NCBI RefSeq assembly: GCF_013141825.1
Contig: NZ_RZNH01000006.1
Span: forward strand, 126,285-162,820
DNA from: Marinifilum caeruleilacunae
GTDB taxonomy: Bacteria; Bacteroidota; Bacteroidia; Bacteroidales; Marinifilaceae
Length of the DNA stretch: 36,536 bases
Direction: 5' to 3'
Translations under genes and position numbers: made by a program
In this document: positions 393 through 20,519 of the stretch, piece by piece
How positions within the stretch are numbered: the stretch's first letter is position 1
Layout of the letters: each line of letters begins with the position of its first letter
Notes under the pieces: generated by a model
Told to the model about the DNA's origin: nothing
What the model saw: the letters and a program-made list of their open reading frames with translations, nothing else
Databases searched by the model: none

Positions 393-2285
393 ATGAAAAG
401 AATTGTAAACCTACTATTAGTGGTTTGTTGTGTGTTATCCGCAACAGCGCAAAACAGGGAAGAGGACAAGGAGAAAACCAAGAACTTTCCTAAAATGAGG
501 GAAATTAAAAATGCAGATATTCCTGGAGCTCCACTTTTAAAGAACCCTATACTATTGACTGGAAGTAAAAATGAAATCAGAACCGAGAAACATGGTTTAA
601 TCTATCCTGCCTTTTTCGATTGGAACAAAGATGGAAAGAAGGATTTGTTATTGGGCGAGTTCGAAACGGGAGATACAGGATCAAACATCAAAGTCTATAT
701 CAATAAAGGCTCTGATAAGAAACCAAAATATACTGGTGAATATTTCTATGCAACGGATATCAAGGGAGATACCATTACCAATCATCAGTGGTGCTGTATC
801 GGAATTCATCCAAGAATTGTAGATATGGATGGCGATGGGCATTTAGATATATTGTCTGGTCAGTACAATCCTGGAAAGATTTCCTGGTGGAGAGGCTCTG
901 ATAAAGGTTTTCTACCTCGGGTTTTCATCGACCAGGAAGGATATGTTGAAGGGGCTCGCCTTACACATGACGATCCATCATGGGATCCGAAAGCAAACTC
1001 CTACTGGAACTACACTTCGGCCGACTTTGCCGACTTCAATGGTGATGGTTTATTGGATTTGTTTGTTGGTGGATCAGACGGTTTTCGTGTAGCACTAAAC
1101 AAAGGCACAAAAGTAAAACCCAAGTTTGGCCTGAGAAAATATTTGCACCATGTTGATGGAAGTATCCTGAAAGTGAATGATCCTGAGCAAAAATGGGTAG
1201 AACAAGCTAAAAAAGACGGAACCTATATTAACCTGGCAGGAGTTGGCAAAGGTTACATGACACCAACAGACTGGGATGGCGATGGAGTATTAGACCTATT
1301 GGTTACGCATGAATATTACCAAAAAGGACACAATCCTGTTGAATTTTTCCGAGGTGTTCAAACCGATAAAGGTTTACGATTCGAAGCTAAAAGAGCACTG
1401 TTTAGCGAGCTAAATGGCGATAAAGCAATGCCGGGTTGTCAGCCAATGATCACTGTTGTGGATTATAACAATGATGGCGTACAGGATATTGTGATGGGAA
1501 TTTCCATCCCAACCATTAACGGATATGATGCTGTACCGGAAATTGCCTGGAGATGGGTAAAAGATATGCAAATTGAGATGCCTGGTAAAGATGCTGGTCG
1601 TACCATTAAATGGGCAGGTGGTGTTGAAGGAGCAATTAAAAAGATTGAAGCAGATACCATGGGCTGGACTCGCAGAATGTACATGGGTAATCTGGATGAT
1701 TACAAGTATCTGACCATGCGTCACAGAGGATATACATTCGTTTTTTACGGTAAAAAGAGTGATACAAAAGCCATAGCAAAAAAAGCAGAAGCCCAACCAG
1801 CCTTCCAACGTAAGCCATGGAAAAATGAGTTGGTTAAAAGCTCCTCAACGAAAGGACCGGTAAGTTTTACGATAAAATCGCCAGAGCGTGTAAAGTATGG
1901 AAAAGAACATATGCTTGAGATTGATTTTAAGTTGAAAAAAGATTGGTACCTGTATACCGAAAACAAAGCCAATATATCGGCTGGCTTTATTCCAACAGTA
2001 GTTAGTGTTGAACTGCCAGATGGTGTTGATAAAATTGGTGAACTGGTAATGCCGAAAGAAACGCCAAAAGGAGGTATGGTAGTTTATAAGGGAGATAGTG
2101 TTTGCTTCAAGCAGAAGTTTTCATTGAAGCGCCCAACAAGAGAGCAATATATGGATAAAAACTTTAAACCTTTAAGAGAGGTGGATATTAAGGTGAAGAT
2201 CAAGTTTCAAACCTGTAACAACGAAATGTGCTTGCCACCCGAAGAACATGTGGTGGATGTAAAAGCTAATGTAAGCATGCGATAG
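393..2285 (+). CDS. FG-GAP/VCBS propeller protein with C-terminal DsbD-alpha-like domain
   Basis: Exported 630-residue protein with a Sec signal peptide ending near residue 20 (SATAQ). The body has Ca-binding type FG-GAP/VCBS motifs (D-x-N/D-x-D-G-x-x-D) near residues 77, 144, 214, 293 and 357, pointing to an integrin-like beta-propeller. A vicinal cysteine pair sits in WCCIGIHPR (Cys134-Cys135). Residues about 485-630 resemble the DsbD N-terminal (alpha) immunoglobulin-like domain, including the active-site-like C-N-N-E-M-C (608, 613) followed by LPPE, comparable to the CxxxxxCYPPE region of E. coli DsbD. The fusion suggests a propeller that receives or passes electrons by thiol-disulfide exchange; substrate unknown. 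A close paralogue lies at 10741-12624. The start codon follows an A-rich leader and gives a good signal peptide. The domain calls are fairly secure; the function is inferred. Confidence 0.85.
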   Translation: MKRIVNLLLVVCCVLSATAQNREEDKEKTKNFPKMREIKNADIPGAPLLKNPILLTGSKNEIRTEKHGLIYPAFFDWNKDGKKDLLLGEFETGDTGSNIKVYINKGSDKKPKYTGEYFYATDIKGDTITNHQWCCIGIHPRIVDMDGDGHLDILSGQYNPGKISWWRGSDKGFLPRVFIDQEGYVEGARLTHDDPSWDPKANSYWNYTSADFADFNGDGLLDLFVGGSDGFRVALNKGTKVKPKFGLRKYLHHVDGSILKVNDPEQKWVEQAKKDGTYINLAGVGKGYMTPTDWDGDGVLDLLVTHEYYQKGHNPVEFFRGVQTDKGLRFEAKRALFSELNGDKAMPGCQPMITVVDYNNDGVQDIVMGISIPTINGYDAVPEIAWRWVKDMQIEMPGKDAGRTIKWAGGVEGAIKKIEADTMGWTRRMYMGNLDDYKYLTMRHRGYTFVFYGKKSDTKAIAKKAEAQPAFQRKPWKNELVKSSSTKGPVSFTIKSPERVKYGKEHMLEIDFKLKKDWYLYTENKANISAGFIPTVVSVELPDGVDKIGELVMPKETPKGGMVVYKGDSVCFKQKFSLKRPTREQYMDKNFKPLREVDIKVKIKFQTCNNEMCLPPEEHVVDVKANVSMR

Positions 2286-2303
2286 TTTTTTTGATTAGGG
2301 TGA

Positions 2304-2339
2304 AAAGACTGTTTCCTGTAATGGGGAATGGTCTTTTTT
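2304..2339 (+). terminator. Probable intrinsic terminator after the first FG-GAP gene
   Basis: AAAGAC (2304-2309) pairs with GTCTTT (2331-2336), with an inner TTCC/GGAA stem, and the hairpin runs into a T-tract at 2333-2339. It starts 19 bases after the stop codon. Confidence 0.65.
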
Positions 2340-2340
2340 A

Positions 2341-2380
2341 AAGTCCAAAAGTCCAAAAGTCCAAAAGTCTTAAAGTCAAT
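2341..2380. repeat. 8-bp tandem repeat (AAGTCCAA)
   Basis: Three perfect copies of AAGTCCAA (2341-2364) are followed by two degraded copies (AAGTCTTA, AAGTCAAT). The array lies directly after the terminator and outside any gene. Confidence 0.8.
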
Positions 2381-2421
2381 GAGATTATTACACATTATTA
2401 ATTACTCATTGTTAACGCTCG

Positions 2422-2486
2422 AAGGTTAATTAAGGTTAAATCTCATCCAGCTCTTCATTCCATAATCAAGCATGCGTGTATTACTA
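2422..2486 (+). promoter_or_regulatory. Shared promoter-like module upstream of the first thioredoxin-TPR gene
   Basis: AAGGTTAATT (2422-2431) is followed in tandem by AAGGTTAAAT (2432-2441). TTCATTC begins at 2454 and TGCGTGTATTAC at 2473, with GTG at 2476, 22 nt after TTCA. This matches the first module closely, including TGCGTGT. The flanking sequence just 5' (ACTCATT, CGCTCG) also matches the module at 4144, showing that the two upstream regions are duplicates. Confidence 0.55.
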
Positions 2487-2547
2487 GAACAAAGGGACTT
2501 TTAGAAAATAAGTTTCAAATTAATCTAACCAAAAATAGAGATAAACA

Positions 2548-3810
2548 ATGAAGAAAGTATTACTGATTGCATTACTTGCAATTTTTAGTGTAGGTGTGAA
2601 TGCACAGGGAATTCAGTTTGAACAAGGTACATTTGCCGAAGCTTTGACAAAAGCTGAAAAAGAAAACAAATTGTTGTTTGTAGATTTTTACACCACATGG
2701 TGTGGCCCATGCAAGAAAATGTCAAAAACCATTTTCACTCAAGATGAGGTTGGTGCTTTTTTTAACCAAAACTTCATTTCTTTAAAAGTGGATGCTGAAA
2801 AAGGTGAGGGACCAGAATTGGCAGGAAAATACAATGTAAAAGGCTTTCCAACCATGATTTTTTTTAATGGCGATGGATCTGAAAACAAGCGTTTGGTAGG
2901 AGCAACTCCTGATGCGGGTTTCTTCCTGAGTTTTGCCAAGCAGGTAACAGGCGATGAGACGCCATTTTTAGAGAAGTATGAAGCTTACAAAAAGGGAAAT
3001 AGAAATCTGGATTTTGTAAGAAGCTTAATCCTTTCCGGAGGTGTATATGCCTCAACTTTACCACGCGAAGAACAGGGCCCTTGGTATGAAAAATTTGCTG
3101 ATATGGCATCCTGGTATTTTGTTTGCAAACAACCACAGCAAATGATGAACAAAGACGACTTTCGTCTGATTTCAATGTATTTAGATGGACCGAATAACGG
3201 AAATCCATTTGTGGAGCACATTTACAATAATTATGAGGCTTGGAAGAAAGTGATTCCTGTTGAAGATTTAACCATGTTCATTTTGAGAACAAACAACCAG
3301 TCGATTCACGATTCATACCAGAAGGGAAACTTGAAATTTCGTGAATACCTGGCAGCAATACATGGTCGTTTGGCCCAGGCTCATATCGATGGAAAAGCAA
3401 ATGATACGCATGAGGTGATGACCTATGTTGCCGAGGCTGGTTATTGCCTGCATGGTTTAAAAGATGTAGACGGCTACCTGGATTGGAATGAAAAATACAA
3501 AGCATACCAGAAAGAAAAAGGTGAGTTGGATGCCAGAAGCTATATGGCTACTGTTGGCAACTGTTTGCATGCTTCGAAAGATTACATTAGCGAAAAGCAG
3601 GTGAAAAGGTTGATGAAATTTATCGAATTGGGATTAAAATTAGATGCCAATGCAAGTACACTTATCGAAAATAAAGGAGATTGCTACGCATTACTTAAAA
3701 ACTCTGAAAAAGCAAAAGAGTGCTACAATAAAGTAATTGAATTAACCAAAGACAGCAGACATGCTGATTACTATAAAGAAAATATGACCAAAAAAATTCA
3801 AGCGCTATAA
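2548..3810 (+). CDS. Exported thioredoxin-fold protein with helical TPR-like tail
   Basis: 420 residues with a signal peptide (cut expected after VNA, near residue 19). The thioredoxin fold occupies about residues 20-140 with the active site TWCGPCKKM (Cys52, Cys55) and the cis-proline in GFPT (Pro101). The stretch VDAEKGEGPELA between them is shared by all four thioredoxin-like proteins of this cluster. The remaining 280 residues are helical; the last 60 (KAKECYNKVIELTKD) look like a tetratricopeptide repeat. It is a very close paralogue of the gene at 5602. The CGPC site suggests a reductant or disulfide shuffler in the periplasm, but partners are unknown. A conserved TAATCTAACCAAA leader element lies 27 nt before the start. 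The gene has its own promoter-like module and terminator, so it can be expressed alone. Confidence 0.88.
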   Translation: MKKVLLIALLAIFSVGVNAQGIQFEQGTFAEALTKAEKENKLLFVDFYTTWCGPCKKMSKTIFTQDEVGAFFNQNFISLKVDAEKGEGPELAGKYNVKGFPTMIFFNGDGSENKRLVGATPDAGFFLSFAKQVTGDETPFLEKYEAYKKGNRNLDFVRSLILSGGVYASTLPREEQGPWYEKFADMASWYFVCKQPQQMMNKDDFRLISMYLDGPNNGNPFVEHIYNNYEAWKKVIPVEDLTMFILRTNNQSIHDSYQKGNLKFREYLAAIHGRLAQAHIDGKANDTHEVMTYVAEAGYCLHGLKDVDGYLDWNEKYKAYQKEKGELDARSYMATVGNCLHASKDYISEKQVKRLMKFIELGLKLDANASTLIENKGDCYALLKNSEKAKECYNKVIELTKDSRHADYYKENMTKKIQAL

Positions 3811-3837
3811 TTAGCTTTGAATCGTGAGTAGTTTCAG

Positions 3838-3868
3838 GCCATTCCTTGTACGGGGGAATGGCTTTTTT
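3838..3868 (+). terminator. Intrinsic terminator
   Basis: GCCATTCC (3838-3845) pairs with GGAATGGC (3855-3862), followed by six T. It lies 28 bases after the stop codon of the thioredoxin gene. Confidence 0.85.
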
Positions 3869-3869
3869 A

Positions 3870-4143
3870 GTCAAAAAAATACATGAATCTGGAGGTAAAC
3901 AGGAAAGTTTCTTGACTAGAAAACTAGCTGTAATGAATGCAAGTTAGCCCTGAAAGGGCATTTCATTTCAGCCCAGGGCAAATGAGCGCAGCGAATGTCA
4001 TCCTGGCTTATGGTTGGTAAATCTCTCGTCGCAACTAGTGATCATCATTATTGTAATTCAATGCATGCGACGAAAGAAAAGAGGAAAAATTCAAGAGATT
4101 ATTATCCATTACTAGTTATCCATTACTCATTATTAACCGCTCG
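3870..4143. repeat. Intergenic stretch with a dispersed-repeat-like element
   Basis: This part of the 456-bp gap between two thioredoxin genes has no believable gene; the 79-codon frame at 3995-4234 runs through the regulatory module and looks like nothing known. It contains GCCCTGAAAGGGC (3947-3959), TTCAGCCCAGGGCAA (3967-3981), and an inverted pair TCGTCGCA (4026-4033) / TGCGACGA (4066-4073). GC-rich fragments of the kind 'GCCCTGAAAGGGC...TTCAGCCCAGGGC' are, from memory, seen as interspersed intergenic repeats in several Bacteroidota genomes. I could not verify copies elsewhere in this genome. Confidence 0.45.
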
Positions 4144-4208
4144 AAGGTTAATTAAGGTTAATTCTCACTCTTCCCTTCATTCCATTGGAAAGAGTGCGTG
4201 TTCTTCAA
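4144..4208 (+). promoter_or_regulatory. Shared promoter-like module upstream of the second thioredoxin gene
   Basis: A perfect tandem AAGGTTAATT (4144-4163) is followed by TTCATTCC (TTCA at 4176) and TGCGTGT (GTG at 4198), again 22 nt from TTCA to GTG. The AAAGGGAC a few bases downstream also recurs in the module at 2422. A TAATCTAACCAAAAA leader element follows at 4244, 23 nt before the start codon. Confidence 0.55.
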
Positions 4209-4266
4209 ATACAAAGGGACTTATAAGTAAATGAAGTTCGAATTAATCTAACCAAAAACATATACA

Positions 4267-5484
4267 ATGAAAAGATTAGTAATGATTGCTTGCCTCTTGA
4301 TGGCAACAATTGCAGTAAAAGCACATCAGGAAGGAAAAGGAATGAAATTCTTCCATGGAACTTATGAAGAGTTGCTGGCTGAGGCTAAAAAGCAAGACAA
4401 GAAAATTTTTATCGATTTCTATACCAAATGGTGCGGACCATGTAAAGCCATTGCGAAAAATGTGTTCCCGCTGGAGTCGGTTGGTAAATTCTACAACGAA
4501 CACTTTATCTGTTACAAGGTAGATGCCGAAGTTGGAGAGGGGCCCGAGCTGGCAAAGAAATACAAAGTAAAAGGCTTTCCAACATTTACTTTCACCGATG
4601 CCGAAGGGAAATCGATTTACGAAGGAACCTCAATAGGTGCAGGTGATGAAAAAGGATTTTTAAGATTGGGGCGCCTGGCCCTTGGTTTGGAAAAGAAAGA
4701 TTGGGCGTGGTACCAGGAAGAGTTCAAAAAAGGAGCGCGTTCAGTTGCTTTTCTCGATGAATATTTCCAGGCCAGAATGGCTGCAACTCACAGACCTCCA
4801 AGTGCCGACGACTGGTACATGATGTATGAATGTTATCCAGAAAATGAACGTTGGGAAGGAAAGCCTTTGCTAATGGCATTTTGGCAAGCTCGTTATGGCA
4901 ACAAATTCTACAATGTAGTAGTTAACAACAAGGAAAAATTTCCACTCTTAAAAGATGCTGCAAATGCTGTTGCCTGGTTCTGTTCTTCCTTATACGATTC
5001 TATGGGTGATGAGGCAAAACTCAAAGCTACTTTTGAAGCCATGAAAAAAGATTTTCCAGCTTATGCTGATCAGGCAAAAGATCTTTTCGATCGTGATATG
5101 TTGAGATTTAACGGACAAGAAGCTGAACATGTTCTAAAAATGATGGAATACAAGGAAAAGTATGGTGAACCTCTTGGCTTTGATCAAATGGTTGGTTTTT
5201 CGGCCTTAAAAGCAAAAGAGCTAAAGCCTGAGCATGCCGATTTTATTCGCAAAAAGTATGAAGAAGGTTTGAATGCCACTCCCGTTCATTTCTTTTCGGT
5301 AGGTGCTTATGCTTACTTAAGCTACAAAGCTGGTAAAACAGGTGAAGCAAAGGAAATTGCTAAAAAATATGCCAAAGAAGCTGAAAAATATGCTACATCA
5401 AAGAAATCAGCCTGGCCATATTCAATCGTGCAAAATTTACTAAAGGGAGAGGAGCTAAGCCCGCTTTCATTTCCAAAAAGATAA
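4267..5484 (+). CDS. Exported thioredoxin-fold protein, distinct helical tail
   Basis: 405 residues with a signal peptide ending around VKA-HQ (residue 19). The thioredoxin domain has KWCGPCKAI (Cys56, Cys59) and a cis-proline in GFPT (Pro105). The VDAEVGEGPELAKKY segment is shared with the sister genes. The C-terminal 270 residues are alpha-helical and Trp/Tyr-rich early (WYQEEF, DDWYMMYECYP), and diverge clearly from the tails of the genes at 2548 and 5602. This points to a different binding partner with the same redox head. Role inferred: periplasmic thiol-disulfide exchange. It sits between two near-identical paralogues, so the three probably arose by local duplication and divergence. Confidence 0.86.
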   Translation: MKRLVMIACLLMATIAVKAHQEGKGMKFFHGTYEELLAEAKKQDKKIFIDFYTKWCGPCKAIAKNVFPLESVGKFYNEHFICYKVDAEVGEGPELAKKYKVKGFPTFTFTDAEGKSIYEGTSIGAGDEKGFLRLGRLALGLEKKDWAWYQEEFKKGARSVAFLDEYFQARMAATHRPPSADDWYMMYECYPENERWEGKPLLMAFWQARYGNKFYNVVVNNKEKFPLLKDAANAVAWFCSSLYDSMGDEAKLKATFEAMKKDFPAYADQAKDLFDRDMLRFNGQEAEHVLKMMEYKEKYGEPLGFDQMVGFSALKAKELKPEHADFIRKKYEEGLNATPVHFFSVGAYAYLSYKAGKTGEAKEIAKKYAKEAEKYATSKKSAWPYSIVQNLLKGEELSPLSFPKR

Positions 5485-5497
5485 TTGATATTTCTCA

Positions 5498-5534
5498 AAA
5501 GCCTGTCAGAGCGAATTAAGCCTGACAGTGCTTT
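5498..5534 (+). terminator. Hairpin, probable (leaky) terminator between thioredoxin genes
   Basis: AAAAGC-CTGTCAG (5497-5509) pairs with CTGACAG (5522-5528) and GCTTTT (5530-5535), followed by GCTTTTT. The next gene lacks the shared promoter module, so this hairpin may attenuate rather than stop transcription. Confidence 0.6.
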
Positions 5535-5601
5535 TGCTTTTTCATATTGCTGAACAGCAATCAAATCTGAAAAATTAATCTAACCAAAACAAATACAAAA
5601 A

Positions 5602-6870
5602 ATGAAAAGATTACTATTGGTGGCAGTAATGGCGGTGATTTCACTGTCTGTTTCTGCACAGGGAATTCAATTCGAACACGGCACTTTTGCTGAAGCTTTA
5701 GCAAAAGCTAAAAAGGAGAACAAATTGCTATTTGTAGATTTCTACACTACATGGTGTGGCCCTTGTAAAAAAATGTCGGAAACCATCTTCACACAAAAAG
5801 AAGTTGGCGATTATTACAACAAAAATTTTATCTCTTTAAAGGTTGATGCCGAAAAAGGAGAAGGTCCAAAATTGGCAGAAGCAAATAAGGTGAAAGGTTT
5901 TCCAACAATGATTTTCTTTAATGCCGATGGAACAGAAAACAAGCGTTTGGTAGGAGCTACTCCCGATGCAGGTTTCTTTATCAGCTTTGCGAAACAGGTT
6001 ACGGGCGAAGAAAAGCCATTTCTTGAGCAATTCGAGGCATACAAAAAGGGGAATAGAAACCTCGATTTTGTAAGAAACCTGATTCTTGCAGGTGGAGTTT
6101 ATGCTTCAACTTTACCACGCGAAGAGCAAACTCCATGGTTTGAAAAGTTTGCCGAAATGGCTTCCTGGTATTTCGTGTGTAAACAACCTCACGAAATGAT
6201 GAACAAGGAAGATTTTCGCTTGATTTCGATGTATTTGGATGGTCCAAACAACGGAAATCCATTTGTGGAACACATTTATAACAATTATGAAGCCTGGGCG
6301 AAAGTTATTCCAAATGCAGATCTTTCCATGTTCATTTTCAGAACAAACAATCAATCTATTCACCAGGCATATCGTACTGGCGATTTGAAATTTCGCGAAT
6401 ACCTGGCTGCAGTTCACGGTCGATTGGCAAAGGTATATGCCGATACACCTGATGCGGATGCAGAGGATACTTTCCAGATTATGACCATGGTTGGAGAATC
6501 GGGACTTTGTTTGTACAAAAAAGATTTAGATGGTGTTCTGGATTGGAACGACAAATACCTGGCATATGAATTGGCAAAGGGAGAAGTTGAATCGTATTCT
6601 TACAACACCTCAGCTGGTCAGTTACTACAAGCTAAGGATGCCATTACTCCTGCGCATGCAAAACGCGTAATGAAAATCTTAAAAACAGGCTTGAAAAAAT
6701 ACCCTGGCGACAGAAGTCTTACCATCTCTTTGGGAGAATATTCGGCACTACTTGGTGATAAAAAAACAGCCAAAGAATGTTACGAAAAGGTAATTGAAAT
6801 GACAAAAGATGGGCGAGGTGCAGATTACTTTAAAAACCTAATGGAAGAAAAGCTACAAGCATTAAAATAA
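5602..6870 (+). CDS. Exported thioredoxin-fold protein with helical TPR-like tail, paralogue of 2548
   Basis: 422 residues with a signal peptide ending near residue 19 (SVSA-Q). The active site TWCGPCKKM is at Cys52/Cys55 and the cis-Pro in GFPT. Nearly collinear with the 2548 protein over its whole length, including the segments FVEHIYNNYEAW and RLISMYLDGPNNGNPF; differences gather in the last 140 residues. The tail ends in a TPR-like helix pair (TAKECYEKVIEMTKD). It lacks the TTCA/GTG promoter module but has the TAATCTAACCAAAA leader 26 nt before the start, so it is probably read through from the gene before it. Periplasmic thiol exchange is the likely role; why two near-identical copies are kept is not evident. 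Confidence 0.87.
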   Translation: MKRLLLVAVMAVISLSVSAQGIQFEHGTFAEALAKAKKENKLLFVDFYTTWCGPCKKMSETIFTQKEVGDYYNKNFISLKVDAEKGEGPKLAEANKVKGFPTMIFFNADGTENKRLVGATPDAGFFISFAKQVTGEEKPFLEQFEAYKKGNRNLDFVRNLILAGGVYASTLPREEQTPWFEKFAEMASWYFVCKQPHEMMNKEDFRLISMYLDGPNNGNPFVEHIYNNYEAWAKVIPNADLSMFIFRTNNQSIHQAYRTGDLKFREYLAAVHGRLAKVYADTPDADAEDTFQIMTMVGESGLCLYKKDLDGVLDWNDKYLAYELAKGEVESYSYNTSAGQLLQAKDAITPAHAKRVMKILKTGLKKYPGDRSLTISLGEYSALLGDKKTAKECYEKVIEMTKDGRGADYFKNLMEEKLQALK

Positions 6871-6891
6871 GATCTTTCACATCAATAAATT

Positions 6892-6932
6892 AACCAGTAT
6901 TGGGATTGTTTTGAATGATCCTGCTACTGGTT
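6892..6932 (+). terminator. Weak hairpin between thioredoxin and propeller lipoprotein
   Basis: AACCAGTA (6892-6899) pairs with TACTGGTT (6925-6932), but only three T follow. It may be an attenuator or an mRNA-stabilising hairpin. The 81-bp gap and absence of the shared promoter suggest the next gene is at least partly co-transcribed. Confidence 0.35.
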
Positions 6933-6951
6933 TACCCAAACAACAAAATCA

Positions 6952-8673: not shown

Positions 8674-8711
8674 ATATCACATGAATTTGAATATTAACTA
8701 ATGCGATTTTT

Positions 8712-8739
8712 AGGCGGGTTGTAATGGCCTGCCTTTTTT
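8712..8739 (+). terminator. Terminator abutting the next promoter
   Basis: AGGCGG (8712-8717) pairs with CTGCCT (8729-8734) with one G-T pair, followed by six T. The T-run is joined directly to CTCTTCACCC of the next promoter-like module. Confidence 0.75.
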
Positions 8740-8775
8740 CTCTTCACCCTTATTTTAAATAAAGGTGTTTACTCA
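8740..8775 (+). promoter_or_regulatory. Shared promoter-like module (without tandem 10-mers) upstream of propeller B
   Basis: CTCTTCACCC (TTCA at 8743) and GGTGTTTAC (GTG at 8765) are again 22 nt apart. The AAGGTTAATT tandem is missing; a terminator occupies its place. The implied leader is short (about 30-35 nt). Confidence 0.5.
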
Positions 8776-8804
8776 ATAAACAATAACAAAAAGAAATAAG
8801 CCAA

Positions 8805-10587: not shown

Positions 10588-10648
10588 TATCTCTTTATTT
10601 GTCAGAGTATCATTAAAAAAAAGACTTTTCTGTATTTTTTTAAGATTT

Positions 10649-10684: not shown

Positions 10685-10740
10685 TTACAAATAAGCAACA
10701 AAAACCAGTTGCATGTTTAATCTAACCAAATAAATACAAT

Positions 10741-12624: not shown

Positions 12625-12703
12625 CTTATCGATATAGGCACATATTTTGCTATCTTAGCAGTGTTTAAACAACAAAATGTCTAACAAGATTAAAATTTTT
12701 ACA

Positions 12704-13108: not shown

Positions 13109-13133
13109 GTTCATCTAAAATTGAAATAGAAAG

Positions 13134-13167
13134 ATTCCTGCTTCTCAAAAGAGGCAGGAATTTTTTT
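13134..13167 (+). terminator. Intrinsic terminator
   Basis: ATTCCTGC (13134-13141) pairs with GCAGGAAT (13154-13161), followed by a run of seven T. Confidence 0.85.
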
Positions 13168-13191
13168 GTCTTGTTGGGGCGATTCTTTTTC

Positions 13192-13265
13192 AATTAACCT
13201 TAATTAACTTTAAAAGTAAGCTCCTTCTTAATTCTATTTTGATTTCATCGTGTTTTTGACTTATA
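13192..13265 (+). promoter_or_regulatory. Reversed tandem 10-mer site upstream of propeller C
   Basis: AATTAACCTT (13192-13201) and AATTAACTTT (13202-13211) are the reverse complement of the AAGGTTAATT tandem found at 227, 2422, 4144 and (less exactly) 15064. CTCCTTCTTAA follows at 13221 and CGTGTTTTTGAC at 13259. The latter resembles the GTG element, but no TTCA lies 22 nt before it, so the promoter part is degenerate here. Confidence 0.4.
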
Positions 13266-13295
13266 CAAAGGAATCTAATAAACAAAATCAACACA

Positions 13296-14876
13296 ATGAA
13301 ACTTAAAATGAAGACTTTAGCAGCCTTGTTAAGCATTCTAATGATGCTTTCGGCTTGTAACTCCCAAAAAAAAGAAGCTGGTTTTACCCTAAACGGAACC
13401 ATTCACGGATATGAAAATGGAACGCTTTTATTAAAGAAGGATTTTAACGATCCAAATCCTGTAAAGTATGAAGTAAAAGACGGGAAGTTCACCATCACCG
13501 GAGATCTATTGGATGAACCCAAAGACCTATTCATGGAAATCAAAGAAAAAGATGTTCGTTTCGGACTGTATGTTGAAAACGGCGTGAATACTTTGGAAGT
13601 GAAGCTTACCTCTAAAACGCACCCAATGATGGGAGAAATGTTTAGCATGGAAGTGATTAAAATGGAAGCTTCCATTGTGAATGAACACGAGAAGGAGATA
13701 CGCGAAAAAGACCAGCAAGTAAGAGATCAGTATTATGGCAAGAATATGGAGAAAATGGCAAGCCTTACTGATGAAGATATTAATGCTTACAAAGAGGCAA
13801 GTGCAAATGTAAATCGTGAGTTTATTAAAGCCCATCCTGATGCATACTACTCGGCTTATTTGGCTTTACGTTTGGCTCACGGTGAAGATTCTGAAGGTGT
13901 GAGAGAAGTTCTGGCGATGTTAGATCCAAAAATGGACAATTCATTGGTAAGAGCCCTTAAAACCAAATTGAAAGACATGGAACTCACTGATGTGGATCCA
14001 TCGGAAATTATCAAAGCCAAAAATGTATCGTATAAAGTTGAAAAGGCATTTGCAGGAAGTAATCATACCAATATTGTGTATATGGGGATGTTCTCGAACG
14101 ATAATGTTTGTACACTTACTAAAGATGGTAGCATTCAGATTGTAGATGCAAAAGGAAAAGAGATCAGCAAATTTAAGCCAAGCCTGGCATCACTGCCAAC
14201 TTCAATAGCTGTAGATCAGGATGATCAGATTTATGTGATGTATCCATTGACAAAAAAAGTAAGCAGGAAATTTAGAGGGAGAACGATGGAAATTGATGAA
14301 ACCTATGCGTTTGAGTGTAGTGTTTTCGATACAAAAGGAGAGCTGAAAAGCACTTTCGAGCTGGAAGGAATTGTTACTGCAACGGGAGCTCGTGTTGCCG
14401 AAGGAAAACTGTTGGTGGCCGACTGGCAAAGCAGAATAATTGGTGTGTTTAATGCGAAAACTGGTGCAAAAGAAGCTGCTTTGGAAGACATGAGACCTTG
14501 TTGTGCCATTTTGGATTTTTCGATCAATGCCAAGAACGAAGTTTTGGTTGCCAACCTTGGAGCATTTAGAGTACAGGCCTACGATTTAAGCGGCAAAAAC
14601 TTATTGGCATTTGGCAAGAGAGGTAAATCGGTAAACGATTTTCATGGATGTTGTAATCCTGTGAGTGTTGCTTACCTGGATAATGGTGCTATTGTTACGG
14701 TAGAAAAGGATCCAACACGTGTTAAAATTTTCAGCAGCGAGGGAGCGAAGCAAATTGAAGGAATCGAGGAGTTGGTAAAAGGTTGCTCTTACATTCCAAT
14801 GATTGTTGACAGCAAAGACAATTTGTACCTGGCTTCTCCTGAAAAAGGAATGATTAAATGTGTATCGGTAAGTTAA
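13296..14876 (+). CDS. Beta-propeller lipoprotein with vicinal Cys pairs (paralogue C)
   Basis: 526-residue lipoprotein, lipobox MLSAC (Cys21). DUF4369-like head (FTLNGTIHGYENGTLLL; VKDGKFTI), a charged helical middle quite different from paralogues A and B, then the NHL-like propeller. The signature cysteines are kept: RPCCAILDF, GCCNPVSV, GCSYIP and the terminal IKC. The HDNYNSH motif and the NPTNPY stretch of A and B are missing, so C is the most diverged of the three and may bind another partner. The start gives the best signal sequence; ATG five codons later is possible. Placed between the small thioredoxin gene and the iron-sulfur operon. Ligand unknown. Confidence 0.84.
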   Translation: MKLKMKTLAALLSILMMLSACNSQKKEAGFTLNGTIHGYENGTLLLKKDFNDPNPVKYEVKDGKFTITGDLLDEPKDLFMEIKEKDVRFGLYVENGVNTLEVKLTSKTHPMMGEMFSMEVIKMEASIVNEHEKEIREKDQQVRDQYYGKNMEKMASLTDEDINAYKEASANVNREFIKAHPDAYYSAYLALRLAHGEDSEGVREVLAMLDPKMDNSLVRALKTKLKDMELTDVDPSEIIKAKNVSYKVEKAFAGSNHTNIVYMGMFSNDNVCTLTKDGSIQIVDAKGKEISKFKPSLASLPTSIAVDQDDQIYVMYPLTKKVSRKFRGRTMEIDETYAFECSVFDTKGELKSTFELEGIVTATGARVAEGKLLVADWQSRIIGVFNAKTGAKEAALEDMRPCCAILDFSINAKNEVLVANLGAFRVQAYDLSGKNLLAFGKRGKSVNDFHGCCNPVSVAYLDNGAIVTVEKDPTRVKIFSSEGAKQIEGIEELVKGCSYIPMIVDSKDNLYLASPEKGMIKCVSVS

Positions 14877-15430
14877 TTTGTTCTTAGCATCGTTTGATAT
14901 AGCAATGTTGAGTTGTATTACTGATAGTTAAAAAAATGACATGCCCAATCCTCTTAATGAATAAGGATGGAGAGAAATTGGGTATGTCAAAACAAGTAAA
15001 TTCACTCTATTTAGGTTAAATAAAGTGAATAAACATTACTAAAACTCTCCTTAAACAAGCCTTCCAGTTAATTAAGGTTAAAATTGAAACCAATCATTCA
15101 TCCAAACTAATAAGTTTGGTGTCCTAATCGTAAAGCAGAAAAAACTAAAAAGGAACTTCTCGATCTTAGGTGATAGAAGAGACATGAAAAAGGATTTTAT
15201 TTAGAGGGATTATGAATAATGCAGAAAATCACTTTTTTATTCATCCATTTTTACAGGAATAGTGTCATATAGGCAAACACTTAGCGAGGTTGGTAAAACT
15301 TCCCTGACAGAAAAAGTGTTCCTTTTTTTATAAGTTTGATCAATTTTGAATTAACAGTATAGGGATTTTGATCTGTTGACCACAAACAGATGATAGGGGA
15401 ATCCGATGTAGTATATTAAAGCTTAATAAC
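14877..15430. other. Long structured intergenic region with a promoter-like module
   Basis: No gene in 554 bases. It contains a large inverted repeat, TGACATGCCCAAT (14937-14949) / ATTGGGTATGTCA (14977-14989), with an inner ATCCT/AGGAT stem and no T-run. A second is TTCACT..ATTT / AAAT..AGTGAA (15001-15029), and a third ATGAATAA (15212-15219) / TTATTCAT (15237-15244). The promoter module at 15064-15127 would give a leader of roughly 300 nt to the next gene, long enough for an RNA regulatory element. I recognise no known riboswitch. Confidence 0.55.
15064..15127 (+). promoter_or_regulatory. Shared promoter-like module upstream of the PhnD/ferredoxin operon
   Basis: CCAGTTAATT (15064-15073, 8 of 10 matches) is followed in tandem by AAGGTTAAAA (15074-15083). 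TTCATCC (TTCA at 15097) and GGTGTCCTAA (GTG at 15119) keep the 22-nt spacing. It lies 312 nt before the start codon. Confidence 0.45.
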
Positions 15431-16369
15431 ATGAAATCACTAATTAAATTATCAGCAATTGCACTATTAATAAGTGTGTTTGCAGCCTGTAACGAGAAGC
15501 CTAAGAAAGAAGTAAAGAAAGATGAAGGGTTTGAAGAAACAGCATTTATGCCTTGTTGTGGCGATCCATCGCCAAATGATAAATTGCTAACCATTAATCT
15601 TGCCCTGAACGATACTTATTGCAAGAAAACAGCATGTGCCTGTATTCATGATATCGCAGCAAGAGAGTATGAAGAGCTTCAGAAACAATTGCTGGAACAA
15701 TTCAATATCGATTTACAGATTACCTATTATATGGAACCATACATGATGGAGGATCAGTTAAGAGCCAAAACTCATGATGGTGTAATTACAAAACCCTGGA
15801 ATGCTTTCATGTTGACAAAGGAGAACAAGTTGCGTTACGAAAGAGTTGCAGATATTCTTGATGTATACGACAATCAGTGGTTAACAGGTGTTTACCTTGT
15901 AAGAAAAGATTCCGACATTAAAACTTTGGCCGATATCAATGGCAGAACATTGGTTGCAGGACAGGAAGATGCTTACGAAAAATACCATGCTCCTTTGCGC
16001 CAGTTGGATAGCCTGAATATCAAGCCTGGAAATATCTACTACAAAGCAAGTTGTCTTGAAAGTATCAACGAACTAATGGATAAGAAGGCCGAAGTTGCTA
16101 TTGTATCTGATTACGTAATGTCGGCAAGTTGTGCAGTTGATGTTGCCAGCGAGGAAGATTTTAGAGTAATTGGTGAAACAGAAAGAATGCCATTGTGTTC
16201 TGTGGTAATCGACAGAAAAAAGATCTCGAAAGAAGATGCCATGAGATTCCAGAATGCTTTGTTGGCCTTATCGAAAGACAAATCGCCAGAAGGAATGTTA
16301 AGCGCAGGATTTGTGAAACCTGCATCGTGGATTCCAAATCCATACAAAAAACCGATAGCACAAAACTAA
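15431..16369 (+). CDS. PhnD-like periplasmic binding lipoprotein, Cys-rich
   Basis: 312-residue lipoprotein, lipobox VFAAC (Cys20). Residues about 52-305 fit the PhnD/SsuA type II substrate-binding fold: INLALNDTY at the first strand, LADINGRTLVAGQEDAYEKY like the LKGKTVA hinge segment, then MDKKAEVAIVSDYV. It departs from ordinary PhnD proteins in cysteine content: MPCCGDPSP (42-43) just after the anchor, CKKTACAC (64, 69, 71), and further cysteines in KASCLES, SASCAVD and MPLCSVV. These could bind a metal or form reducible disulfides. No ABC transporter permease or ATPase follows. Instead a Tat ferredoxin begins 8 bp after the stop, so it is probably a subunit or substrate-presenting partner of the electron-transfer pair rather than an importer component. 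The fold call is moderate; the role is inferred. Confidence 0.75.
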   Translation: MKSLIKLSAIALLISVFAACNEKPKKEVKKDEGFEETAFMPCCGDPSPNDKLLTINLALNDTYCKKTACACIHDIAAREYEELQKQLLEQFNIDLQITYYMEPYMMEDQLRAKTHDGVITKPWNAFMLTKENKLRYERVADILDVYDNQWLTGVYLVRKDSDIKTLADINGRTLVAGQEDAYEKYHAPLRQLDSLNIKPGNIYYKASCLESINELMDKKAEVAIVSDYVMSASCAVDVASEEDFRVIGETERMPLCSVVIDRKKISKEDAMRFQNALLALSKDKSPEGMLSAGFVKPASWIPNPYKKPIAQN

Positions 16370-16377
16370 CATAAACT

Positions 16378-17013
16378 ATGACTGAGAAGAAGAATTGGGA
16401 CAGACGCAGCTTTTTGCGTAAAGCTGGTCAGGCCACATGTGCGCTTGCACTTGGAGGGATAGCTTACAGAATTGTAGGTCAACATTTGAATGAGGATACC
16501 GCAGGCCCAAGATCAAGATATGTTTGGCAAATTGATCCTGATAAATGTACCAATTGCGGAAAATGTGAAACAGGTTGTGTTCGCACACCATCGGCAGTGA
16601 AAGCTGTGAACGATCAGAAAAAATGCTCTTGCTGCGTGGTTTGCTACGGGCACATTTCCAATAAGCAAATCGATTCAGATAAAATCATGAGCGACGGAGA
16701 AAGAGTTTGTCCTTACGATGCAGTAACACGTAAGAACTTTTCTGGTGGCAAAGATGGATACTTTATCTACGATATTGATCACGACAAGTGCACAGGTTGC
16801 GGTAAATGTGCCGAAGCTTGTACCGATAAAGGAACAAAATCAATGTTCCTGATTATTCGTCCCGACCTGTGTTTAAATTGCAATTCATGCGACATTGCCA
16901 GAATTTGTCCGGAAGATGCAATCGATCGTTTGTATATCGGTCCAGAAGATGATTTTAAAGGAATTTATGAATTGGAGTACCCTCAAAACGATATGAACGG
17001 ATATGGCGCGTAA
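16378..17013 (+). CDS. Tat-exported 4x[4Fe-4S] ferredoxin, NapG/NosG-like
   Basis: 211 residues. Twin-arginine signal DRRSFLRK (Arg9-Arg10) with hydrophobic stretch ALALGG shows export in folded, cofactor-loaded form. Four iron-sulfur binding groups are visible: C57-x2-C60-x2-C63-x3-C67; C83-x2-C86-x2-C89 with C111-P; C138-x2-C141-x2-C144-x3-C148; C165-x2-C168-x2-C171 with C177-P. This matches NapG and the NosG ferredoxins, which take electrons from a NapH-type membrane partner. The following gene, overlapping by 11 bp, is exactly such a partner. No nitrate or nitrous-oxide reductase gene is present, so the acceptor must be different here, plausibly the upstream Cys-rich proteins (inference). 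Confidence 0.88.
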   Translation: MTEKKNWDRRSFLRKAGQATCALALGGIAYRIVGQHLNEDTAGPRSRYVWQIDPDKCTNCGKCETGCVRTPSAVKAVNDQKKCSCCVVCYGHISNKQIDSDKIMSDGERVCPYDAVTRKNFSGGKDGYFIYDIDHDKCTGCGKCAEACTDKGTKSMFLIIRPDLCLNCNSCDIARICPEDAIDRLYIGPEDDFKGIYELEYPQNDMNGYGA

Positions 17014-18052
17014 AGGATTAAAATTGAATATGAGAGTACTTTTGACACTTGCCTTTGCAATGTTTTCACTAATAGCATCGGTAAATACCAGTATGGCTTT
17101 ACCTTCGGTGCAGGAAGAGAGCCACGATTGTCATAGTGTTGATGATTTGAGCAGGGGAAATATCCGTGAGTTTAAGGACAATTACATTCCGAAGGAATAT
17201 TTTCCAACTCCTGAATACATGGTATTTGTAGATTTGGGTGTGTTGGTTTTATTGATATTAATTGGTGTATTCCTGGTTTGGAGAAGGAAATCGCAAAAGG
17301 CGATGACACTAATGGCTATTATTACATTTGCCTACCTGGGTTTTATACGTGGAGGATGTGTTTGCCCGGTTGGAGCCATTTCCAATACCACAATGGGCCT
17401 GATAACACCGGCAGAAGTTGGATTGGCCAGCCTTATTATTTTTATGGTTCCACTGATTATAGCTTTAATCATTGGTAGGGTGTTTTGTACATCAGGTTGT
17501 CCATTAGGAGCGGTACAGCATATTGTGCAGAAATCTAAAAAGACCATCAAGCTTCCAAAAAAGCTGAATAATGCACTTAAAATTGTACCAATTCTAATGC
17601 TAATTGCCACGGTATATTTTGCCATTCAGAGTGCCTGCTTCTTTGTTTGTGAGGTTGAGCCTTACAAAGTATTGTTCTTTACAGGACAAACCTGGTTCGA
17701 ACAAGCTTTGGCGTATATCCTGGGACATCCAATGGAACCTAAATTTTTATTGGCGTTCGGCATTGGAACATGGTTGTATTTAATTGCAATACTTGTTTTG
17801 GGATATTGGGTGCCACGACCATTCTGTCGTTTCTTGTGTCCTTATGGTGTATTGTTGGGAGTAGTATCATTCTTTTCGTTCAAGCCAAGAAAAATTAAAG
17901 ATCACAATTGTGTGTATTGCGGCATGTGCGAAAAAGTATGTCCAACACAAGCAATTGCCATCGATAGAAAAAACAAATACTCATACGTGTCGAATTACGA
18001 CTGTGTACAGTGTAATAAGTGTAATGATATTTGTAAGAAAGATGCTTTCTAA
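17003..18052 (+). CDS. NapH/NosR-type membrane iron-sulfur protein (quinol dehydrogenase-like)
   Basis: 349 residues, overlapping the ferredoxin gene by 11 bp (translational coupling). The ATG at 17030 (MRVLLTLAF, nine codons later) would give a cleaner signal segment. About five to six membrane segments (near 73-93, 100-115, 141-160, 191-213, 245-268, 273-292). Family marks: the paired CxxxCP motifs FCTSGCPLGA (162-166) and FCRFLCPYGV (275-279), GGCVCPVGA (119-121), EVEPYK as in the NosR C-terminal half, and two C-terminal [4Fe-4S] sites (C303/306/309/313 and C334/337/340/344). NapH passes electrons from quinol to NapG; the same is expected here. Unlike NosR there is no N-terminal FMN-binding domain. 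It ends with a strong terminator, closing a three-gene operon. Confidence 0.86.
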   Translation: MARKGLKLNMRVLLTLAFAMFSLIASVNTSMALPSVQEESHDCHSVDDLSRGNIREFKDNYIPKEYFPTPEYMVFVDLGVLVLLILIGVFLVWRRKSQKAMTLMAIITFAYLGFIRGGCVCPVGAISNTTMGLITPAEVGLASLIIFMVPLIIALIIGRVFCTSGCPLGAVQHIVQKSKKTIKLPKKLNNALKIVPILMLIATVYFAIQSACFFVCEVEPYKVLFFTGQTWFEQALAYILGHPMEPKFLLAFGIGTWLYLIAILVLGYWVPRPFCRFLCPYGVLLGVVSFFSFKPRKIKDHNCVYCGMCEKVCPTQAIAIDRKNKYSYVSNYDCVQCNKCNDICKKDAF

Positions 18053-18078
18053 AATAAAGAATCAACATCATAGTAAAG

Positions 18079-18105
18079 AACCATCCTTCGGGATGGTTTT
18101 TTTTT
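18079..18105 (+). terminator. Strong intrinsic terminator with TTCG loop
   Basis: AACCATCC (18079-18086), TTCG loop, GGATGGTT (18091-18098), followed by a T-run to 18105. It closes the PhnD-like/ferredoxin/NapH-like operon. Confidence 0.92.
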
Positions 18106-18426: not shown

Positions 18427-18527
18427 CTATAGCAAAGGTTAAAACCAAAAATAATCAACTAATCAACCCAACAGGTTGTAATCTGATCAAATTAAGGTGA
18501 CAACCAGTTAAGACTAAAAAGAAACAG

Positions 18528-20519
18528 ATGAAAGGTAAAATTACAATTCTAGCCATTTTAATGATGGTTTTTAGCGGACTTTCTTTCGGGCAGGTGATAG
18601 AGCCTACCAAGTGGAAAGTGGAGTTTTCTAAGAAAGATGTAAAAGTAGGAGACGAATTAGATGTTGTCTTTAAAGCAACAATTGACAAAACCTGGCACGT
18701 TTACTCCAACGATTTCGATCCGGATCTAGGTCCGATCTTAATTACTTTCGAATTTGCAGCGAATTCAAGTTACGAAAGAGTAGGAGACGTTAAGCCAATC
18801 AACGCTCACAAAAAGTACGATGACATTTGGGAAGGTGAAGTAAGCTACTTCGAAAATGAAGGTGAGATGCGCCAAACCATTAAGGTAAAAGAACTACCTC
18901 TACATGTTGCAGGTACTTTCGAATTCCAGACTTGTTCTGATGAAACAGGCCAGTGTGTTATGGGCGATGATGAATTCGATCTTAAAATAGGTAATGTAGA
19001 AGAAAAAGCTATTGTAGCTGATGCTTCTACTTCAGAAAATAAGGAAAGCAAAAAAGGTCTTTGGGCCATTTTTATTGCAGCATTTGTTGGTGGTTTACTT
19101 GCCATTGTAACACCATGTGTATTCCCAATGATTCCTATGACTGTAAGTTACTTTATGCACTCAGGTGGTGGTAACAAGGCAAAAGGAAGAATGAATGCAT
19201 TCTTTTATGGATTCTCAATTATTGCAATTTACACTGTAATTGGTACCATCCTTGCCGTGGTAATGGGACCAGACTTTGCCAATTTCCTAAGTACTCACTG
19301 GGTTCCAAATATTCTATTCTTCCTGATCTTTGTACTGTTCGCTTTCTCATTCTTCGGAATGTTTGAAATTACAATGCCAAGCTGGATGGTAAACAAATCG
19401 GTAGCCAACGAAGACAAAGGTGGTTTCATGGGATCCTTCTTTATGGCCTTTACTTTGGTGCTGGTTTCATTCTCATGTACCGGTCCGATTGTAGGTTCAA
19501 TTCTTGTTGCATCGGCAGGTGGTGAAGTATTGATGCCGATTATTGGGATGTTAGGATTCTCATTAGCATTTGCATTGCCATTTACATTGTTTGCAATTTT
19601 CCCAGGATGGTTGAACAACTTACCAAAATCAGGTGGATGGTTGAACTCTGTTAAAGTCGTATTAGGTTTCCTTGAATTGGCTTTGGGTTTAAAATTCTTA
19701 AGTGTTGCCGATCAGACTTACCACTGGGGATTACTGGATAGAGAAGTTTACATTGCCATCTGGATTGTAATCTTCACACTATTAGGTTTCTATCTGTTAG
19801 GAAAATTAATGTTCGCTCACGATAGCCCATTAAAGAGTATTAGCGTACCACGATTGATGTTGGCCATTGCTTCATTCTCATTCGTAGTATATATGATTCC
19901 GGGTATGTTTGGTGCTCCACTAAAAATGTTATCAGGATTTACACCTCCACAAGCAACTCACGACTTTAACCTGAGTCAGATTGTAAGAGAGAACTCTGGC
20001 GGAGGAGCACCTGCTCACAATACAGCTCATAAAGCAAAGTATTCAGATTTCTTGCACTTGCCTCACGGCTTGCAAGGTTACTTTGACTATGATGAAGCAT
20101 TGGAAGCATCTAAACGTGAAGGAAAACCAATTTTTGTTGACTTTACAGGACATGGTTGTGTTAACTGTCGCGAAATGGAAGCGAACGTATGGTCAGATCC
20201 TGAAGTATTGAAAAGGTTACAGGAAGACTTTATCGTAGTTGCACTATATGTTGATGATAAGAAAAAATTGCCGGAAGATCAGTGGTATGTATCAGAATAC
20301 GATGGCAAGAAGAAGAAAACCATTGGAAAACAGAATGCTGATTTACAGATTCGCAAGTACAATGTAAACGCTCAGCCATACTATGTACTTCTTGATGAAA
20401 ATGGCAACGATTTAACAGAACCAACAGCTTACGATTTAGATGTAAGCAAATTTGTGAAGTTCCTTGATGAAGGAAAGGAAAATTTCAAAAAAAAAGTAAC
20501 AGCTCAAACAGTTAAGTAG
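18528..20519 (+). CDS. dsbD: Thiol:disulfide interchange protein DsbD
   Basis: 663 residues, full-length three-part DsbD. Signal peptide to about residue 21 (SFG-Q). Alpha domain at about 22-155 with Cys136 and Cys143 (TCSDETGQC). Membrane beta domain at about 175-465 with the two redox cysteines in TPCVFPMIP (Cys197) and SFSCTGP (Cys317). Thioredoxin-like gamma domain with GHGCVNCREM (Cys544, Cys547). DsbD carries electrons from cytoplasmic thioredoxin across the inner membrane and hands them to periplasmic thiol proteins. Here four exported thioredoxin-fold proteins and two other proteins with DsbD-alpha-like domains are encoded directly upstream, so they are its likely clients. The TrxB that would feed it is encoded at 25114. 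It has a promoter-like region related to the cluster's. Confidence 0.95.
   Translation: MKGKITILAILMMVFSGLSFGQVIEPTKWKVEFSKKDVKVGDELDVVFKATIDKTWHVYSNDFDPDLGPILITFEFAANSSYERVGDVKPINAHKKYDDIWEGEVSYFENEGEMRQTIKVKELPLHVAGTFEFQTCSDETGQCVMGDDEFDLKIGNVEEKAIVADASTSENKESKKGLWAIFIAAFVGGLLAIVTPCVFPMIPMTVSYFMHSGGGNKAKGRMNAFFYGFSIIAIYTVIGTILAVVMGPDFANFLSTHWVPNILFFLIFVLFAFSFFGMFEITMPSWMVNKSVANEDKGGFMGSFFMAFTLVLVSFSCTGPIVGSILVASAGGEVLMPIIGMLGFSLAFALPFTLFAIFPGWLNNLPKSGGWLNSVKVVLGFLELALGLKFLSVADQTYHWGLLDREVYIAIWIVIFTLLGFYLLGKLMFAHDSPLKSISVPRLMLAIASFSFVVYMIPGMFGAPLKMLSGFTPPQATHDFNLSQIVRENSGGGAPAHNTAHKAKYSDFLHLPHGLQGYFDYDEALEASKREGKPIFVDFTGHGCVNCREMEANVWSDPEVLKRLQEDFIVVALYVDDKKKLPEDQWYVSEYDGKKKKTIGKQNADLQIRKYNVNAQPYYVLLDENGNDLTEPTAYDLDVSKFVKFLDEGKENFKKKVTAQTVK

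Follow-up and report, generated by a model that had tools for sequence, protein, structure and literature searches.

Electron-transfer pairs of the NapGH type are known for a few periplasmic respiratory enzymes, and in thiosulfate oxidation by the Sox system a periplasmic thiol carrier is aided by a CcdA/DsbD-type protein and a thioredoxin (SoxV/SoxW). NapH passes menaquinol electrons to NapG, and its CX3CP motifs matter, according to the portion of PMC5928378 available to us. TtrS and ThsS use PhnD-like domains to sense tetrathionate and thiosulfate, respectively (available part of PMC5408782), and AioX, which has the PhnD fold, binds arsenite via Cys106, in the column of PhnD Gly65 (accessible section of PMC5908839). 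Here we analyse a stretch of 36,536 nucleotides of Marinifilum caeruleilacunae (the window; C168:126285-162820 of a 5.27-Mb genome in 202 contigs), in which thirteen same-strand genes at 393-20519 had been taken, in an earlier sequence-only reading, for one periplasmic thiol-redox system fed by both DsbD and a NapGH-like pair. All of these open reading frames (ORFs) are present on the + strand with domains mostly as described, and they do include an exported cysteine system of an uncommon kind, together with a NapGH-type pair. A single thirteen-gene pathway is rejected by comparison with relatives. The unit is instead a four-gene cassette, PP3-PHN-NPG-NPH, encoding a cysteine-bearing propeller, a PhnD-like lipoprotein and the NapGH-type pair, whereas the SusC/SusD-linked propeller (PP), thioredoxin (TX) and FG-GAP (FG) genes represent an elaboration seen in Marinifilum and related bacteria, and DsbD is a neighbouring gene. 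Literature searches, limited in scope, found no description of the PP-PHN-NPG-NPH gene set.

The cassette is compact, lies on the + strand and is followed by a terminator-like hairpin. PP3 (13296-14876) is a lipoprotein with a DUF4369 domain and a CC-motif propeller of the NHL type, PHN (15431-16369) is a PhnD-like lipoprotein with five invariant cysteines, NPG (16378-17013) is NapG-like with a Tat-like signal (RRSFL) and four CxxCxxC-type motifs, and NPH (17003-18052) is a NapH-like membrane protein with two CX3CP and two C-terminal 4Fe-4S motifs; the family assignments given earlier to the last three, and to DsbD, are borne out by Pfam and motif matches. PHN and NPG are 8 bp apart and NPG overlaps NPH, with gaps of 554 bp between PP3 and PHN and of 475 bp between NPH and DsbD. 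The hairpin (18075-18102, + strand; 12-bp stem and T run) starts 23 bases after NPH, between NPH and DsbD, and has the longest stem of the 12 terminator-like sites in the region (shuffle mean, 5.7).

This rare cassette recurs in Ancylomarina, Puteibacter and six genomes of the distantly related Verrucomicrobiota. PHN is present in 7 of 58 relatives, and a pattern scan for its close relatives in an 84,980-species collection returned 10 loci (six Marinifilum, two Ancylomarina, Puteibacter caeruleilacunae and one metagenome-assembled Akkermansiaceae genome, AkkMAG). Among 387 Verrucomicrobiota genomes 12 gave a PHN match, above 180 bits in six, and 3 of 395 Bacteroidota genomes gave one, two of these (G316, E 2.6e-4; G422, E 1.0e-4) being weak general PhnD relatives that were dropped. 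The weak match in G741 reads by eye as a PhnD-domain histidine kinase and was dropped too, as were the weak match in G779 and a second match in G651. In the resulting 16 loci (the window and 15 others), which span two phyla, NPG and NPH follow PHN without exception, and an order kept in 16/16 loci is more than chance. PP adjoins PHN-NPG-NPH in 10 of them, namely the window, both Ancylomarina, Puteibacter (where PP comes last) and the six Verrucomicrobiota.

The co-occurrence in related genomes that the sequence-only reading had expected of its genes holds for the propeller with PHN-NPG-NPH, whereas FG genes and DsbD also occur without PHN. Among the 58 relatives, full-length PP above 230 bits is found in exactly the seven genomes with PHN, the next match scoring 82.3 bits. 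Likewise, the six Verrucomicrobiota genomes with PHN above 180 bits are the six with PP above 110 bits among the same 387 (112-476 bits; next PP, 90.3 bits). Marinifilum genomes carry 2-7 cassette-type PP each and one PHN. Trees of PHN and of NPH recover the same main groups (the two phyla, Ancylomarina, G681 with G504, and G466 with G572; support for the Ancylomarina pair in the PHN tree, 93/96), although their long branches make finer points unsafe, and this agreement fits inheritance as a unit. Mobile carriage of PHN was considered and rejected, as PHN had no match in the plasmids and no relative in the viral contigs searched.

PHN belongs to PF12974 (E 1.4e-19), as does the Akkermansiaceae PHN, and scores 16.8 bits against an NCBIfam PhnD cut-off of 261.1; neither an ATP-binding cassette (ABC) transporter gene nor a histidine kinase was seen among the window ORFs scanned. 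An alignment of 16 PHN sequences, seven of them close Marinifilum sequences, has 38 invariant columns, of which five are cysteines (C64, C69, C71, C208 and C234). Alignment with Escherichia coli PhnD places the three cysteines of C64-C71 (CxxxxCxC) in the first loop of PHN, after the first strand. In all 12 cassette PHNs compared (G663 left out), C208 aligns with PhnD His157, and PhnD Ser127-Thr128 is replaced by Glu183-Lys184, the mature PhnD numbering being precursor minus 26, which puts Thr128 as in PMC5908839. The available section of the same paper names Ser161, Ser163 and His192 in the AioX pocket as residues that PhnD shares (PMC5908839). From these alignments the PHN pocket seems to have been rebuilt with cysteine and to have lost its oxyanion ligands. 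Residue 120 of PHN, in the column of AioX C106, is Cys in 5 of the 12 and Ser/Thr in 7 (Thr120 in the window), with a gap nearby that leaves the register uncertain. The PHN-like proteins of G593, G568 and G778 keep C69, C71 and C208 and are without C64 and C234. A PDB sequence search with PHN gave no match at E 0.01 and eight weak matches at E 10, the best at 0.17. PHN has a lipobox, which implies Sec export, and a Sec-exported protein is unlikely to carry an iron-sulfur cluster; redox thiols or a soft-metal site are therefore left as the likely role of its cysteines.

Both NPG and NPH match Fer4 families. The two CX3CP and two 4Fe-4S motifs of NPH are kept in 16/16 loci, and in the 16 tabulated NPG rows the four CxxCxxC motifs occur in 15 and RRxF in 13, the window NPG having both. 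The AkkMAG row was out of frame; in its proper frame this NPG has RRRF and the cluster motifs. The NPGs of G681 and G504 show no RRxF by the pattern used. Both window proteins fall far under the cut-offs of the NCBIfam equivalogs (NapG, 42.7 vs 269 bits; NapH, 58.1 vs 234 bits), and NPH has no FMN-binding (flavin mononucleotide) Pfam match at E 0.1, the domain by which NosR and RdhC are recognized.

Of the three propeller lipoproteins described earlier as Cys-rich paralogues, the lipobox (SSC/SAC) and the propeller stand, and the description is corrected by an N-terminal DUF4369 domain (above cut-off in PP1-PP3) and by the NHL type of the propeller. The NHL family is matched by PP3 at 28.8 bits (cut-off, 20), PP1 and PP2 having sub-threshold NHL or SBBP matches, and the PP propeller profile matches the solved NHL propellers of TRIM2 and Thin (best E 5e-15). 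PP3 is closest to the Puteibacter cassette PP (58%), with 43-45% to the other Marinifilum PPs. As the sequence-only reading had required, the cysteines are conserved beyond the paralogues, those of PP and PHN being kept in two phyla: seven PP sequences, drawn from both, share RxCC, GCCNP, one GC and one KC cysteine without exception, and the first pair (CC1) reads CC in 26 of 27 Bacteroidota PPs.

CC-motif propellers occur in three settings. In type I, a propeller with the GCCNP pair only lies upstream of NapG and NapH, as seen in all 11 Bacteroidota loci fetched with a propeller of ~320 aa; 23 Verrucomicrobiota loci of this type, in short stretches, gave NapG in 23, NapH in 21 and a PQQ-like propeller in 20. 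Locus L033 adds NuoEF-fusion and NuoG/GltD-like proteins, with a PQQ-like propeller, beside type I, and L040 is alike by eye. This recurrent grouping of PQQ-like propellers, GCCNP propeller, NapG and NapH (L033 5225-18737 in G016; L046 on contig C69 of the window genome; L132-L154) is a cluster for which we know of no name or function. Type II is the cassette itself. In type III, the neighbour of the propeller is a fusion of a PHN-like domain with a PQQ-like propeller (L103 by Pfam, L105 by eye); such Verrucomicrobiota fusions were seen at L103 8243-11226, L105 1607-3969 and L102 428-2425. CC1 is present in 12 of 13 type II and 2 of 2 type III propellers and in L155, and in 0 of 39 other propellers from loci without PHN, some of which come from genomes with PHN or a PHN-like fusion elsewhere (G033, G593). 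Among 30 fetched Verrucomicrobiota loci (the best propeller match in each of 30 genomes, from 79 matches in 66 genomes), NapG lies beside the propeller in 29, six with PHN between, L155 being the exception; this adjacency offers a handle on a set of propellers lacking assignment. It was found in 0 of 21 weak Bacteroidota loci (best, 32 bits; ~1.5 kb of flank on each side), which argues against a universal NapG-propeller rule at that distance. The 741-aa neighbour of one PP subgroup was considered as a molybdoenzyme and dropped, since it reads by eye as pyruvate-formate-lyase-like.

The other genes of the run belong to different sets, so that the thirteen genes are several gene sets side by side and not one system. 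Upstream of the cassette, FG1-TX1-TX2-TX3-PP1-PP2-FG2 form the end of a ~24-kb SusC/SusD-linked thiol island, all on the + strand. FG1 (393-2285) joins an FG-GAP propeller to a DsbD-alpha-like domain and has WCC and TCNNEMCLPP motifs; TX1 (2548-3810, with a long C-terminal part giving weak TPR matches), TX2 (4267-5484) and TX3 (5602-6870) are exported thioredoxins; PP1 (6952-8673) is a lipoprotein with DUF4369 and a CC-motif propeller (RPCC, SCCNP), and PP2 (8805-10463) is its paralogue; FG2 (10741-12624) is lipoprotein-like, again with FG-GAP and DsbD-alpha-like parts. The claimed FG-GAP/DsbD-alpha fusion is clear for FG1 (DsbD_N, E 4.2e-11), whereas in FG2 the DsbD_N match (E 2.4e-5, 24.8 bits) stays 0.2 bits under the 25-bit cut-off. 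TX4 (12677-13108, + strand) is a small exported thioredoxin, and all four exported CGPC thioredoxins of the sequence-only reading are recovered with WCGPC and Thioredoxin Pfam matches, the signal-like N-terminus being judged by eye.

The ~24-kb block is missing at the homologous site in six other Marinifilum, as judged by DNA match in M. breve, M. fragile and McD1.5 and by gene order in M. flexuosum, D737 and D714. M. breve has a lone DsbD-alpha gene, TX4 and PHN consecutively within ~1.5 kb. The corresponding DNA is split in the window genome: the end of the DsbD-alpha gene matches L043 up to base 8607 (C168:114892), and the match resumes with TX4 at window position 12642 (C168:138926), ~24 kb in between. 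A second extra piece, at 13167-15009, contains PP3. TX4 adjoins PHN in M. breve and in Marinifilum sp. McD1.5 and is, judged from this gene order, part of an older PHN locus. By Pfam the block holds an extracytoplasmic function (ECF) sigma factor, FecR, a SusC-type receptor, SusD, a DUF4369-thioredoxin protein and an IS200-type transposase, followed by FG1-FG2. Across L043 10217-18682 and window 393-14876, ECF sigma, FecR, SusC, SusD and DUF4369-TlpA genes precede the FG, TX and PP genes; DUF4369 thus has two kinds of fusion partner, thioredoxin in some of these proteins and the CC-propeller in others. The IS200-type transposase gene (L043 19161-19697; C168:125446-125982) lies ~0.7 kb upstream of FG1, inside the block. 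Elsewhere in the window genome, a reverse-transcriptase-like ORF (by eye; L045 10887-12188) lies ~3 kb from another PP gene.

Homologues of FG1 above 500 bits occur in G014, G037 and G044, all three without PHN, behind SusC/SusD-like and TlpA-like genes (by Pfam for the G014 pair). In G043, which belongs to the genus of Ancylomarina euxinus and is without PHN, SusC, SusD, TlpA-like, DsbD-alpha-like, FG-GAP, thioredoxin-like, DsbD, M16 and SDH genes follow in that order. SusCD-linked thiol genes and the DsbD neighbourhood therefore exist without PHN-NPG-NPH. Conversely, the six Verrucomicrobiota cassette loci and the readable part of the Puteibacter locus gave no match to the window thioredoxins or DsbD. 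The neighbours of 24 Bacteroidota PP genes (Marinifilaceae and Puteibacter, window excluded) include a TX-type thioredoxin in the same-strand run in 9 cases, SusC in 12 and NPG in 3, the SusC, SusD and TlpA labels around PP genes resting on similarity to a few proteins, some of them checked by Pfam.

Downstream of the hairpin lies the separate DsbD-M16-SDH-TrxB-CysK neighbourhood. DSD (18528-20519, + strand) is a full-length DsbD with DsbD_N, DsbD_TM and a C-terminal thioredoxin domain carrying CxxC. The + strand run continues past it to 27394 through an M16 peptidase identified by domain match (20878-23676; a DsbD neighbour in Marinifilum and G043), SDH (23812-25092; PF03313), which we take to be a cysteine desulfidase of the YhaM/CyuA type and which has no NCBIfam match, TRB (25114-26070; PF07992), presumably a thioredoxin reductase from this membership, and CYK (26279-27394; PF00291), a pyridoxal phosphate enzyme with a Cys-rich C-terminus that we assume to be cysteine-synthase-like. 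The same-strand run also extends upstream of the window, and a very long ORF (29954-36535; 2194 aa) runs off the window end.

What the cassette might do can be approached from its parts. The reading that we prefer, to which we give somewhat less than an even chance, is that quinol drives the reduction of a sulfur or disulfide compound by way of the cysteines of PHN and PP; the quinol donor, the direction, the order from PHN to PP and the sulfur substrate are what we infer. NPH would draw electrons from menaquinol in the membrane, and these would then run through the iron-sulfur clusters of exported NPG to periplasmic cysteine centres. The first acceptor would be PHN, a PhnD-fold lipoprotein with cysteine in its ligand pocket, and the next, or a joint, acceptor the vicinal Cys pairs of the CC-motif propeller. 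PHN would bind a compound bearing a disulfide or sulfane sulfur, which the thiols of PP and PHN would break or reduce, a reductive job being the most likely. Because the Marinifilum PP copies sit in SusC/SusD operons beside thioredoxins, one NPH-NPG-PHN set is likely to supply several PP modules. In G681 (L097 1520-7758), the cassette is followed by an ArsR-type regulator, a DsrE2-like gene and two HdrA2-like genes, the regulator scoring above a general metalloregulator cut-off and below those of BigR and TsoR; the flanks of the Akkermansiaceae cassette were read by eye. An ArsR-type repressor of sulfur oxidation senses sulfane sulfur (available part of PMC10451225), and the cultures reported to grow at high sulfide include Ancylomarina from sulfidic waters of the Black Sea (accessible portion of PMC11129491). 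The roles of NapH and NapG, the ligands of TtrS and ThsS, the G681 neighbours, the Marinifilum thiol genes and the growth of Ancylomarina at sulfide together favour sulfur/disulfide reduction. The fuller proposal, that PP-PHN-NPG-NPH is an undescribed quinol-driven periplasmic sulfur/disulfide reductase in which the PhnD fold has become a five-Cys substrate or metal centre, the vicinal-Cys NHL propeller does the chemistry, and propeller copies are coupled to several SusC/SusD systems in Marinifilum, is doubtful as a whole.

Several observations weigh against this preferred assignment. Sulfur-type neighbours occur in 1 of 6 Verrucomicrobiota loci, and there the DsrE2-like protein scores 54.7 vs 210 bits and both HdrA2-like proteins are below curated cut-offs; the scanned flanks of four other Verrucomicrobiota loci (L098-L101) held no sulfur gene. 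Six of the 16 loci, all from Marinifilum, do not have PP next to PHN, and where a PP has thioredoxins as neighbours, DsbD could be what drives it. Adjacency of DsbD, TrxB and SDH to the cassette is confined to Marinifilum. The PP and PHN score thresholds were placed at gaps seen in the data, and the PP profile used (A5) included four of the six Verrucomicrobiota PPs, with G466 and G572 outside. The PP adjoining PHN in Ancylomarina DW003 has CG at CC1, and L155, a locus without PHN, has CC1; the latter was put aside after the fact, since a different contig of its genome (G568) carries a PHN-like fusion. CC1 and PHN may also go back to a single joint gain.

Other readings of the same genes must be weighed. 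NPH-NPG, with PHN, might form a maturation module that reductively activates PP as the real enzyme, in the manner proposed for NosR and the propeller enzyme NosZ, with a PP chemistry unrelated to thiol reduction. NosR is described both as helping to activate NosZ and as passing electrons to it (available portion of PMC5928378), no surveyed genome had full-length PP without PHN, as for a client needing its maturase, and Marinifilum has one PHN to its 2-7 PPs; the co-occurrence is, however, equally expected of a plain electron partner, and the cassette is without a cofactor-making enzyme. We also know of no PHN counterpart in nos clusters. Maturation we regard as unlikely. Less probable again is the oxidative direction, in which PP would oxidize a substrate or thiols and menaquinone would receive the electrons via PHN, NPG and NPH, making the set a quinone-linked dehydrogenase or a route for disulfide formation. 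The company that related CC-propellers keep with PQQ-like propellers, and in L033 with a NuoEF-like protein, would fit dehydrogenation, and VKOR, found in 5 of 16 genomes searched, leaves room for another oxidant; against this, the NapGH pair is described as moving menaquinol electrons outward, and DsbD-family proteins occur in 16/16 of these genomes, though they are common anyway. VKOR is scattered even within Marinifilum and Ancylomarina, and its presence was uninformative.

Metal or metalloid handling, in which PHN would bind arsenite, mercury or copper in the way of AioX, and PP with NPG-NPH would reduce or detoxify it, we consider improbable. CC and CxC pairs suit soft metals, the regulator after the G681 cassette passes a general metalloregulator cut-off, and the AioX Cys106 column holds Cys in those five cassette PHNs, its register being uncertain; that position is nevertheless Ser/Thr in the other seven, and the window genes and scanned flanking genes showed neither a metal transporter nor a metal reductase. 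Very improbable is the one dedicated thirteen-gene system fed by DsbD and NapGH. Adjacency in the window genome speaks for it, as does PP linking both worlds in Marinifilaceae and Puteibacter, with thioredoxins at 9 and NPG at 3 of the 24 PP genes; yet the modules are separable among relatives, the terminator-like hairpin stands between NPH and DsbD, and the Puteibacter (readable part) and Verrucomicrobiota cassettes are without match to the window thioredoxins and DsbD. What survives of that proposal is the tie of the NapGH-type pair to PP and PHN; the common feeding of thirteen genes is not supported, given the block absent at this site from six other Marinifilum, FG1 and DsbD occurring without PHN, and the hairpin.

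The cassette thus ties a NapGH-like pair, across two phyla, to two cysteine proteins, an NHL-type vicinal-Cys propeller and a Cys-bearing binding-protein fold. If reduction through PHN and PP is the true function, it would represent a further route from the quinone pool to periplasmic thiols or sulfur compounds. Among known systems, Sox with SoxV/SoxW is loosely like the Marinifilum neighbourhood in combining a DsbD-type protein with a thioredoxin; it differs in that no Sox protein is seen here and the fold of the Sox carrier is unrelated. With the binding proteins PhnD, AioX and TtrS/ThsS, PHN shares membership of PF12974, whereas neither an ABC transporter nor a histidine kinase accompanies it among the window genes scanned. 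From PhnD it departs by Cys for His157, Glu-Lys for Ser127-Thr128 and the CxxxxCxC of its first loop, and from AioX, which is marked by Cys at C106 and XSR regulatory genes, by Thr120 in the window PHN and by the lack of a histidine kinase among these ORFs. NPH is like NapH and its relatives NosR and RdhC in its CX3CP and C-terminal 4Fe-4S motifs, and NPG, as an exported ferredoxin with four cluster motifs, is like NapG; NosR and RdhC are set apart by an FMN-binding domain, for which NPH has no Pfam match, and NapG/NapH by their partner, no nitrate reductase being seen among the window genes scanned and the partners of NPG/NPH being PHN and PP. Also comparable is the PQQ-propeller/CCNP-propeller/NapG/NapH cluster of Bacteroidota and Verrucomicrobiota, which differs from the cassette in having PQQ-like propellers (with NuoEF-like proteins added in L033 and L040) and neither PHN nor CC1, and which resembles it in placing a GCCNP propeller directly before NapG-NapH.

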